A stretch of DNA of 64,000 bases from Branchiostoma floridae (taxonomy: Eukaryota; Chordata; Leptocardii; Amphioxiformes; Branchiostomatidae). The stretch lies in assembly GCF_000003815.2 (NCBI RefSeq), contig NC_049990.1:8725353-8789352 (forward strand), given 5' to 3'. The translations under genes were made by a program, and so were the position numbers. Below, piece by piece: positions 11,842-24,959 of this stretch. Each line of letters starts with the position of its first letter. The stretch's first letter is position 1. The notes beneath the pieces are model-generated. The model was not told the DNA's origin. It saw nothing but the letters and a program-made list of their open reading frames with translations, and searched no databases.

Positions 11842-12830
11842 TTACAAACTACACTTTTGCAACCAAACTGGAAAGCTTTTATCGTGAAGACGCTCAATGA
11901 TCTTGTCCAGATAGCGGTCAACAATTTGCGCCACGTGCCGTACGAAGGCCTTGCCGTGTGATGGCCCGATGTCGTCAGACATCATGAGATGGGCCGCGTA
12001 CTTCCTCCTGTCAGTTTTAGAAAATGTCGCCGGAACGAATCCCGATTTTAGTAGTATCGCGTTGAGTAACATCCGTGCTGTTCTTCCGTTGCCATCTCTG
12101 AAGGGATGAATATGGACCAGTTTATGATGGGCGGATGCAGCCCTCTCTATTGGATGCATGTCTTGTGTTTCCTCTGACGTCAGCCACGTTTGAAACTCCG
12201 CCATCTTGGATCCGACGTCATCAGGTCCCGGTGGATTGTGGGTAGGTCCTACAAAGACAGTCATATTGCGCACGCGCCCTGCCCACAGTGGATTGCTCCT
12301 GCTAAGCAACCGCTGATGAATTTCTTTCACATCAGGAAGCGATCTGTTACCTAGAGTTGATTTGACATAATCAACAGCTTCCATGATGCCTATCTTTTCA
12401 CCGTCTCTCCTCTTTGTGTCTACCGAATCATTACTAAATACAAACGGGCGATAGAAGCAGTTGAACAGCATCTTTGAAACGCCGGCGGAGCTTGAATGTT
12501 TCTGTAGTTCTTTAACAACGAAGTCATTCTTGTGGCTTATGTCCGTCTGTAGCACACGATACCGTGTCTCCAGGACAGGTAGCAGTCTGTGTCGACCCTG
12601 TATCGCCGATGTTGTGTTCGGGGCGTACAAGAGAGCGCGGGCGTAGTTCTCGTCGGCTTCTTCCAGCTTTCCAATCGTCTCCAGAAAGCGGCCATATCTT
12701 GTGATCACGGCTGCATTCTTGGGGGCCAGGTTCACTGCCTCTTTGTACGACTGTTTGGCGGTTTCGACGTCACCGCGCTCTGTAGCTATCTCTGCTGTGC
12801 GAATTGCATTGTCAATTCGGAACTTTTGTT
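11842..12830 (-). other. TPR-Fic exon of the fusion gene
   Basis: Encodes 329 aa. It starts with two TPR-like helical pairs ([16 protein letters not shown] and [18 protein letters not shown]), as in FICD. The Fic core follows: EIHQRLL, then [12 protein letters not shown] with the catalytic His codon at 12106-12108. At the place of FICD's inhibitory IEGN the sequence reads VFSND; the Ser codon is 12433-12435. The exon ends LQKCSL then TAA. A single large exon with phase-1 acceptor TTTCCACAG. Confidence 0.92.
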
Positions 12831-24800: not shown

Positions 24801-24959
24801 GTCGAATGAAAATCCCTTAAGTGTACACAAAAAGGCTGACCTAGGTAATTTTAGACGACTTTGAGGAAATTGGAACACGTACCTTGTAGATCCAGCCTGG
24901 AAGAAGCTTTGCGTTGTTATGAAGAGAAACAAAACTCTTGGAAGGAAATTTGAATCCAT
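11842..24959 (-). CDS. Ig-trypsin-EGF-LDLa-Fic fusion protein, secreted
   Basis: Twenty exons join in one frame (3672 nt, 1223 aa plus stop): 24883-24959, 24289-24350, 22823-23095, 22243-22530, 21553-21673, 20721-20867, 19787-20024, 18938-19098, 18302-18420, 17725-17865, 17434-17559, 16959-17072, 16597-16710, 16223-16348, 15869-15982, 15514-15630, 15178-15291, 14601-14723, 13218-13325, 11842-12830. Order: signal peptide, Ig 47-137, Ig 138-233, S1 protease 234-495, eight EGF to about 817, LDLa, Glu/Thr linker with RRRRKR, then TPR-Fic 895-1223. The Fic exon has an in-frame stop upstream and no in-frame ATG before it, so it must be spliced to the extracellular exons. The protease exon ends with donor GTAAAA in phase 1, matching the EGF exon. 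Fic catalysis (AMP transfer from ATP) is established for HxFx(D/E)GNGR proteins; the substrate here is unknown. I know of no such fusion. The main alternative is two genes, which would leave the Fic exon without a start. Confidence 0.82.
13218..13325 (-). other. Linker exon with polybasic site
   Basis: A 108-bp phase 1-1 exon encoding an acidic Thr/Glu/Pro stretch, then [21 protein letters not shown] fits the proprotein-convertase pattern RX(K/R)R. It is homologous to the linker exons of the second Fic gene (29421, 30538, 32435, 34056), which read RRRRNLPVQ. Confidence 0.85.
13539..14241. repeat. Inverted repeat flanking an AT-rich block
   Basis: The 24-base arm TAGAGTCCATTCCAAGACAC-CATG at 13539-13562 reappears inverted at 14218-14241. 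The 650 bases between are AT-rich, with tandem ACCATTT motifs and no ORF of note. It lies in the intron between linker and LDLa exons, and could be a foldback element or a local inversion. Confidence 0.55.
14237..14505. repeat. Minisatellite, about 45-bp unit
   Basis: Roughly six tandem units built on ATCACACTGAAAACACC then CCCTGTCCCTGGTGCTGAAGG. Related single units occur at 13455-13545 and, decayed, in the second Fic gene near 29565 and 30140. Confidence 0.8.
14601..14723 (-). other. LDLa exon of the fusion gene
   Basis: A phase 1-1 exon encoding one complete LDL-receptor class A repeat: [23 protein letters not shown]. The calcium-binding acidic cluster [12 protein letters not shown] is intact. 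It is closely similar to the LDLa exons at 31192, 32817 and 34437. Confidence 0.92.
15178..17865 (-). other. Array of eight EGF-like exons
   Basis: Each exon is phase 1-1 and has six cysteines. Those at 17072, 16710, 15982, 15630 and 15291 begin with D-(V/I)-N-(E/D)-C, the start of calcium-binding EGF. The two long exons, 17434-17559 and 16223-16348, begin LRKC and are nearly identical. With the shared intron sequence (GCCAAT-GAGACGTCGTTCT), the order suggests a block duplication: 17434/16959/16597 and 16223/15869/15514, offset about 1.1-1.2 kb. The first EGF (17725-17865) has an acidic GDDDD lead. Confidence 0.88.
17207..17292 (-). pseudogene. Truncated EGF exon
   Basis: Starts like its neighbours (acceptor CTACAG, then [16 protein letters not shown]). 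After CQPGYI it runs directly into sequence that elsewhere is intron (CCGATTTATA-side, TTTCGCCCCCAA). The last cysteine and the donor are missing. Skipping it keeps frame, so it is best read as an intronic relic. Confidence 0.7.
18660..18900. repeat. Dispersed repeat, related copy near 35090-35240
   Basis: Shared GTGGATTG-TCATTCCTTGACA and AAAATTTG-GTGAGTC-like blocks occur in both Fic genes. No coding potential seen. Confidence 0.35.
19155..19385 (+). mobile_element. tRNA-derived SINE
   Basis: An A-box-like stretch at 19171-19188 (GGCGTAACTGGTAGAGCG) and a B-box-like stretch at 19207-19224 (GTCCTGAGTTCGATACC). A conserved-looking body with GGAAAGGCACTTTACAC and CCCAGGTGTAAA follows. It is intronic. 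Confidence 0.7.
20398..20670. repeat. Dispersed repeat, second copy at 35555-35735
   Basis: Shared blocks include TGCATATCAATTCA-like, CTCTCCA-CAAGATTTC, TCTGAAACGTCTGACC, ATCATATCCAGTT-CTTGAGTAACTG and TTTGGCGT. The copies sit in introns of the two Fic genes but look like an independent dispersed element. Confidence 0.55.
22243..23095 (-). other. Two Ig-domain exons of the fusion gene
   Basis: Phase 1-1 exons 22823-23095 and 22243-22530. Each has the Ig pattern Cys, Trp, then Y-x-C: IACSAQ/KWYKG/GKYTC and FPCSAE/ISWTKD/GRYTC with DSGRYTC. Intermodular starts are similar ([18 protein letters not shown]), suggesting they duplicated from each other. Confidence 0.88.
23350..24236. mobile_element. 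Long-TIR foldback element, Tc1/mariner-like ends
   Basis: Near-perfect terminal inverted repeats of about 180 bases (23350-23530 and 24056-24236), ending TACGAGGGGGGTTCAATAAG and bounded by TA. Inside is a second, shorter inverted pair (CGTTACTGGGTGTCGCCTGC at about 23733 and its complement near 23953). It encodes no transposase. It lies in an intron of the fusion gene. Confidence 0.75.
24289..24959 (-). other. Signal-peptide exon and short second exon
   Basis: Exon 24883-24959 starts with ATG (24957-24959), [20 protein letters not shown], a hydrophobic signal peptide, and ends in phase 2 at a GTACGT donor. Exon 24289-24350 (62 nt) completes the phase shift from 2 to 1 and encodes a basic stretch ending RLMRRGTE. 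The first exon fits the Ig exon only through this second exon. Confidence 0.75.

Follow-up and report, generated by a model that had tools for sequence, protein, structure and literature searches.

The locus described here raises the question whether a single gene of the lancelet Branchiostoma floridae joins immunoglobulin-like (Ig) domains, a serine protease, EGF repeats, an LDLa module and a Fic domain in one secreted chain, and what its Fic part would act upon. The window, i.e. the whole stretch of DNA analysed, is 64,000 nucleotides long; the genes and features cited from it all lie on its minus strand, and the genome searched comprised 513 Mb in 431 contigs. Gene 1 (24959-11842) is built of 20 joined exons with 3672 nt including the stop codon, equivalent to 1223 amino acids, with zero internal stops and with GT-AG borders at 19/19 introns. 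The joins from protease to EGF (18302/17865), EGF to LDLa (15178/14723), LDLa to linker (14601/13325) and linker to Fic (13218/12830) are all in phase 1. Both the exon chain in one frame and these phase-1 joins had been proposed in a sequence-only reading, and re-derivation from the sequence returned them unchanged. The exons and an associated relic are as follows.

24883-24959, minus strand: exon 1, signal peptide (by eye)
24289-24350, minus strand: exon 2, short linker, the least supported exon
22823-23095, minus strand: exon 3, Ig 1 (Pfam and paralogs)
22243-22530, minus strand: exon 4, Ig 2 (Pfam and paralogs)
21553-21673, minus strand: exon 5, start of the protease, activation site DGF/VVGG
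20721-20867, minus strand: exon 6, protease, catalytic His292
19787-20024, minus strand: exon 7, protease, catalytic Asp344
18938-19098, minus strand: exon 8, protease, catalytic Ser445
18302-18420, minus strand: exon 9, end of the protease, donor CAG/GTAAAACT, with the same donor in the paralog on contig C14
15178-17865, minus strand: exons 10-17, eight EGF exons
17865-17725, 17559-17434, 17072-16959, 16710-16597, minus strand: EGF exons 10-13
16348-16223, 15982-15869, 15630-15514, 15291-15178, minus strand: EGF exons 14-17
17191-17290, minus strand: degenerate EGF exon, a ninth EGF-like stretch with an acceptor and no donor, for which reason it is rightly left outside the gene 1 model
14601-14723, minus strand: exon 18, LDLa
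13218-13325, minus strand: exon 19, linker with basic cleavage site
11842-12830, minus strand: exon 20, TPR-Fic with Fic motif and stop codon

Pfam assigns Trypsin (209.8 bits), Fic (74.3 bits) and LDLa (43.7 bits) to the gene 1 protein, each above its own cut-off, as well as EGF in eight stretches and Ig_3 in two stretches, also above the cut-offs; TPR_19 lies inside the Fic exon with 25.4 bits against a cut-off of 25. Within the EGF array (15178-17865), exons 17559/16348 and 17072/15982 form pairs with about 80-85% protein identity, and the same 12-base acceptor stretch is found within each pair, which points to a block duplication inside the array. The intron between the LDLa and linker exons holds a minisatellite (14239-14508) with 6.3 copies of a 43-base unit.

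The protease of gene 1 is of the S1A type, with a complete triad (His292, Asp344, Ser445). Its nearest solved relatives are thrombins, the best being alpha-thrombin (E 1.6e-57). The pocket is trypsin-like, with Asp at what we take to be position 189. Zymogens of trypsin-like enzymes are commonly, not universally, activated after Arg or Lys; in gene 1 a Phe precedes VVGG. The search of the genome with the Ig-Ig-protease part gave at least 94 matches (93 of 312 candidates scored), and among the matches listed are relatives on contigs C14, C19, C4 and C3. Their Ig and protease exons are 79-90% (C14) or 39-78% (C19, C4, C3) identical to those of gene 1. At C14 the signal peptide resembles that of gene 1 (52% identity over 23 residues), and the protease is followed by the same first EGF exon (70%); no start resembling the gene 1 signal peptide was found at C19, C4 and C3. 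Exon 2 of gene 1 has only a 9-residue match in the paralogs (E 0.35, on C3). The Ig-Ig-protease-EGF front of gene 1 is a member of a protease family of this genome. Phe or Tyr stands before (V/I)VGG at the activation site of gene 1 and the four paralogs; activation of the gene 1 protease would accordingly fall to an enzyme of other specificity, despite its own trypsin-like pocket.

Gene 2 (36937-27886) is located 2.9 kb upstream of gene 1 and consists of a signal peptide, a short exon with EKPVQL, LDLa, linker exons and a TPR-Fic exon. Its features, and a separate Fic remnant beside it, are as follows.

36865-36937, minus strand: exon 1, signal peptide (by eye)
35263-35307, minus strand: short exon EKPVQL, repeated at 33604-33560 and 31973-31929
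34437-34556, minus strand: LDLa, with a further copy at 31311-31192 and a frameshifted copy at 32938-32817
29421-29525, minus strand: last linker exon, with basic site; other linker exons at 34163-34056, 32542-32435 and 30678-30538
27886-28871, minus strand: TPR-Fic exon with stop codon
27431-27571, minus strand: remnant left by a third Fic copy (47 C-terminal residues at 70% identity)

The model of gene 2 has 631 residues and leaves out the middle LDLa, which carries a two-base frameshift. The EKPVQL-LDLa-linker block is repeated, and a run of 100 N (30776-30875) lies inside the repeated part, so the assembly may show too many or too few LDLa-linker blocks. A second copy of the signal-peptide exon (37420-37352), 74% identical, runs into a stop. 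The TPR-Fic exons of genes 1 and 2 are 75% identical, the linker exons are 43% identical over 35 residues, and the linkers of both genes carry an arginine run before (N/H)LPVQ. A protease exon of the gene 1 type was searched for at gene 2 and not found. LDLa-linker-TPR-Fic therefore appears as a shared unit that enters the secretory pathway in two ways, since gene 2 has its own signal peptide and no protease.

The domain combination itself is not new. The sequence-only reading knew of no such combination, wrongly, as Kinch et al. reported in 2009 a single B. floridae sequence in which two Fic, two TPR, two LDL and two Ig domains occur together with a trypsin and five EGF domains; to these authors the set suggested a location outside the cell or within vesicles (PMC2686095). 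The combination is real and unusual, and has been known since then as a predicted domain order. What else had been proposed, that an AMPylation (or de-AMPylation) domain would be carried out of the cell or into the secretory lumen together with an active protease, agrees in part with what is seen, namely the signal-peptide-like start, the extracellular modules, the triad, the trypsin-like pocket and the Fic motif. Gene 2, the basic site and the losses in the Fic part (see below) had escaped that reading. Like gene 1, the 2009 protein as described combines trypsin with two Ig, EGF repeats, LDLa, TPR and Fic in a single predicted chain; it differs in that two separate genes are seen here, gene 1 having one Fic domain and eight EGF exons. 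Taken literally, the 2009 model with its two Fic domains implies that both Fic units belong to one giant protein. This is very improbable: a stop codon closes the Fic exon of gene 2, and gene 1 opens with a signal-peptide exon of its own, to which the C14 paralog has a similar counterpart. Most likely the 2009 sequence is a merged prediction of genes 1 and 2, since only two TPR-Fic genes were found beside the canonical one. Section 7 of that paper mentions neither a cleavage site nor a regulatory change for the B. floridae protein (PMC2686095). The two-gene split, the basic sites and the loss of the inhibitory motif and of the BiP-binding lysines (see below) were not found in print in the PMC literature searched, and appear to be new here. 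The same literature yielded no follow-up in lancelets, no experimental test of the predicted protein, and no paper with any of three phrases for secreted or extracellular AMPylation. In the bacterial protein IbpA a Fic domain also shares its chain with a protease (PMC2686095), which is papain-like and belongs to a class other than the S1 type of gene 1.

From these features we infer a single transcription unit for gene 1 (24959-11842, minus strand). Phase 1 is usual at joins of extracellular modules, and the open frame alone says little because such modules mostly share that phase. Splice scores together with the open frame were set aside as proof of one transcript, the splice matrix having been trained on the same sites. 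The in-frame Met codons of the joined protein are more telling: one is at residue 458, in the last protease exon, and the next at residue 1015, after the TPRs, so that no separate start is available to the EGF, LDLa, linker and TPR parts. The Fic exon had been described as lacking an ATG after an upstream stop, and indeed the open frame 12888-11842 reaches the acceptor without a Met. Between 18400 and 12831, a scan for signal-peptide-like exons (37-180 nt, phase-1 donor required) gave 2 candidates, both overlapping the EGF exon 17072-16959. As a control the scan recovered the start of gene 2, together with one unrelated candidate (37269-37161); it is blind to the start of gene 1 itself, which ends in phase 2. 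At C14 and C19, too, EGF exons follow the protease, which makes this join common to paralogs, and the order LDLa-linker-Fic is the same in gene 2. The join between EGF and LDLa is seen at this locus alone, with no confirming paralog. Poly(A)-like hexamers occur in both critical introns, ATTAAA being located at 17907 (protease-EGF) and at 14751 (EGF-LDLa), among a total of 16 AATAAA/ATTAAA in the gene 1 region.

It is at this join that another reading enters, in which the secreted Ig-Ig-protease-EGF protein would as a rule stop short of the LDLa exon, and the LDLa-linker-Fic tail would be a relic, left in truncated form from a second tandem LDLa-Fic gene whose start was lost. Gene 2 shows that a gene of this kind can exist with a start of its own, and at C4 a stop closes the frame immediately behind the protease, provided that the GTGAGG just ahead of this stop is no donor. 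In the four paralog regions (30 kb each) LDLa, linker and Fic gave no match at E <1e-3, and the hexamer at 14751 lies inside the intron in question. The tail is nevertheless intact, with an open exon of 989 nt, fitting splice sites and low Ka/Ks in the LDLa and the Fic half; behind the last EGF, where poly(A) hexamers were the one feature searched for, no terminal exon was seen. Between genes 1 and 2 the TPR-Fic exons have a Ka/Ks of 0.48 over 326 codons, made up of 0.91 in the first 110 aligned codons (the TPR half) and 0.37 in the rest (the Fic half); the LDLa of gene 1 compared with one LDLa of gene 2 (31311-31192) gives 0.09 over 39 codons. We consider the relic unlikely and retain the single unit. 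The value of 0.91 suggests that the TPRs may be weakly constrained.

Just ahead of TPR-Fic both copies carry a basic site, RRRRKR or RRRR. The furin-type site is R-x-(K/R)-R, and the basic sites of both genes fit it. Elsewhere in gene 1 this pattern recurs once, as RCRR within the protease. The basic site probably frees the Fic part.

The Fic motif HPFx(D/E)GNGRxxR is complete in both genes. The best solved relative of the gene 1 TPR-Fic part is human FICD (E 1.7e-44, aligned from residue 16), and TPR repeats stand directly before Fic, as in the FICD class. Fic sequences were found at five places in the genome: gene 1, gene 2 and one site each on contigs C11 (a canonical FICD), C4 (a different Fic) and C13 (a broken copy). 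The C4 match (C4:24310380-24310676) stands for a Fic protein that is separate and of a different type (LHPFMDGNGRLSRILMN, open frame of 328 aa); the C13 match is broken by stops, by eye resembles the C4 type, and was set aside. NCBIfam returned nothing over its cut-offs for the Fic copies of genes 1 and 2 and the lancelet's own FICD. The own FICD shares with the window copies the order TPR then Fic, the motif HPFxDGNGRTxR and 37-38% identity. The window copies differ from it in the signal peptide and extracellular modules in front, and in having TPR and Fic in one exon, whereas the own FICD has an intron between them.

The main difference concerns the inhibitory segment. A scan of bacterial genomes with the own FICD alone gave no relative, while a three-row alignment recovered 6 relatives among 159 stretches. 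The inhibitory motif (S/T)xxxE(G/N) is present in 8/8 compared Fic proteins (human, own FICD with TNAIEG, six microbial), and is absent from the corresponding segment of both gene 1 and gene 2. From the conserved LP to (I/V)G(I/M)xEA the window copies have 63 residues and the own FICD 81, i.e. they are 18 residues shorter. The string TSAIEG does occur in gene 2 at residue 73, at the end of the TPRs and away from the motif's place; it is taken as a probable chance match. In MAFFT alignments of four sequences, 3/4 modes delete the motif outright and one pairs SVD/SIE with AIE, a pairing also given by a further alignment; with ten sequences, 4/4 modes set another stretch of the window copies against AIEGNTLS. 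No placement keeps (S/T)xxxE(G/N), although that of SVD/SIE on AIE would leave an acidic residue. A natural E234G in gene 1 (HSSSAG against HTVAIEG) was considered and dropped, the segment aligning in several ways. As the stretch does not align firmly, the claim is limited to the missing canonical motif, with no residue assigned as its replacement. An AlphaFold2 model of the whole TPR-Fic exon from two rows was poor (pLDDT 50.0) and was discarded. A Fic-only model from eight rows (genes 1 and 2, the own FICD and, with Treponema omitted, five of six microbial loci) reached pLDDT 72.9 and pTM 0.79; it does not settle the motif, because the disputed segment has a pLDDT of about 44-65. The dimer contact Leu258 and the relay residues Lys256 and Glu242 of human FICD belong to this stretch, and AMPylation rises 19-fold when the human enzyme is made fully monomeric (PMC6826200). 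The shortened stretch may thus also weaken dimers of the window copies.

Fic enzymes with other activities exist. The Fic part could on this ground be no AMPylase at all, but a de-AMPylase, a transferase of another group or a pseudo-enzyme, and the changed regulatory segment and the loosely constrained TPR half would suit such a fate. Every residue of the Fic motif is kept in both copies, however, and human FICD with E234G is incapable of de-AMPylation (PMC6826200), the motif of that glutamate being the one missing here. Loss of AMP transfer is accordingly judged improbable, at about the level of the relic tail, and AMP transfer is the preferred reading.

As to the target, Lys121, Lys124 and Lys127 of human FICD grip BiP, and each Ala mutant loses >98% of BiP AMPylation (PMC8065156). 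The local TPR alignments reached scores of 91 and 96, whereas none of the 300 shuffles made for each scored above 40. The three lysines correspond to D, T, Q in gene 1, to D, T, A in gene 2 and to K, K, K in the own FICD. Over the six BiP-contact positions compared (121, 124, 127, 131, 134, 135; Glu105 lies outside the aligned segment) gene 1 keeps 0/6, gene 2 1/6 (Met135) and the own FICD 4/6, differing at 134 and 135. The genome thus keeps one BiP-type FICD and two copies in which most of the interface is lost, the contact residues having been replaced. A Fic domain of the same TPR-Fic family on what is presumably the luminal side of the membrane might otherwise be taken for a second FICD, acting on BiP in the ER lumen before export; with the three lysines replaced in both copies and kept in the own FICD, this is highly doubtful.

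FICD is held in the ER by an N-terminal membrane segment. In both window genes signal-peptide-like starts (by eye) and extracellular modules are read from the sequence, and their Fic parts are most likely AMP transferases that are secreted, can be cleaved off and act on a target other than BiP. For gene 1 we infer a secreted Ig-Ig-S1-EGF8-LDLa-basic site-TPR-Fic protein that is cleaved, its freed TPR-Fic part AMPylating a non-BiP target; the chances for and against this full scheme are about evenly balanced. The chain would enter the secretory pathway and be cut at RRRRKR by a furin-like protease or another Arg-specific enzyme, possibly its own S1 domain with Asp 189. The cut would release a soluble TPR-Fic enzyme, which might transfer AMP from luminal or extracellular ATP to its target without the usual inhibitory glutamate motif of FICD. 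More tentatively, the tandem genes may form a secreted AMP-transfer system of a chordate, in which furin-type cleavage frees TPR-Fic enzymes that lack the inhibitory switch and BiP binding and act on extracellular or luminal targets; a protease precursor that binds matrix or a target would deliver one of these enzymes. If true, animals would possess a new layer of protein modification, namely secreted or luminal AMP transfer outside the control of BiP. The interest of the locus lies in this testable claim of a secreted, de-regulated AMP transferase, and the presence of two copies, with and without the protease, makes the part that directs the enzyme directly testable. A further protease gene, with a CUB-like open frame and trypsin-like exons (window positions about 9136-9591 and 4892-7434), is located downstream of gene 1.
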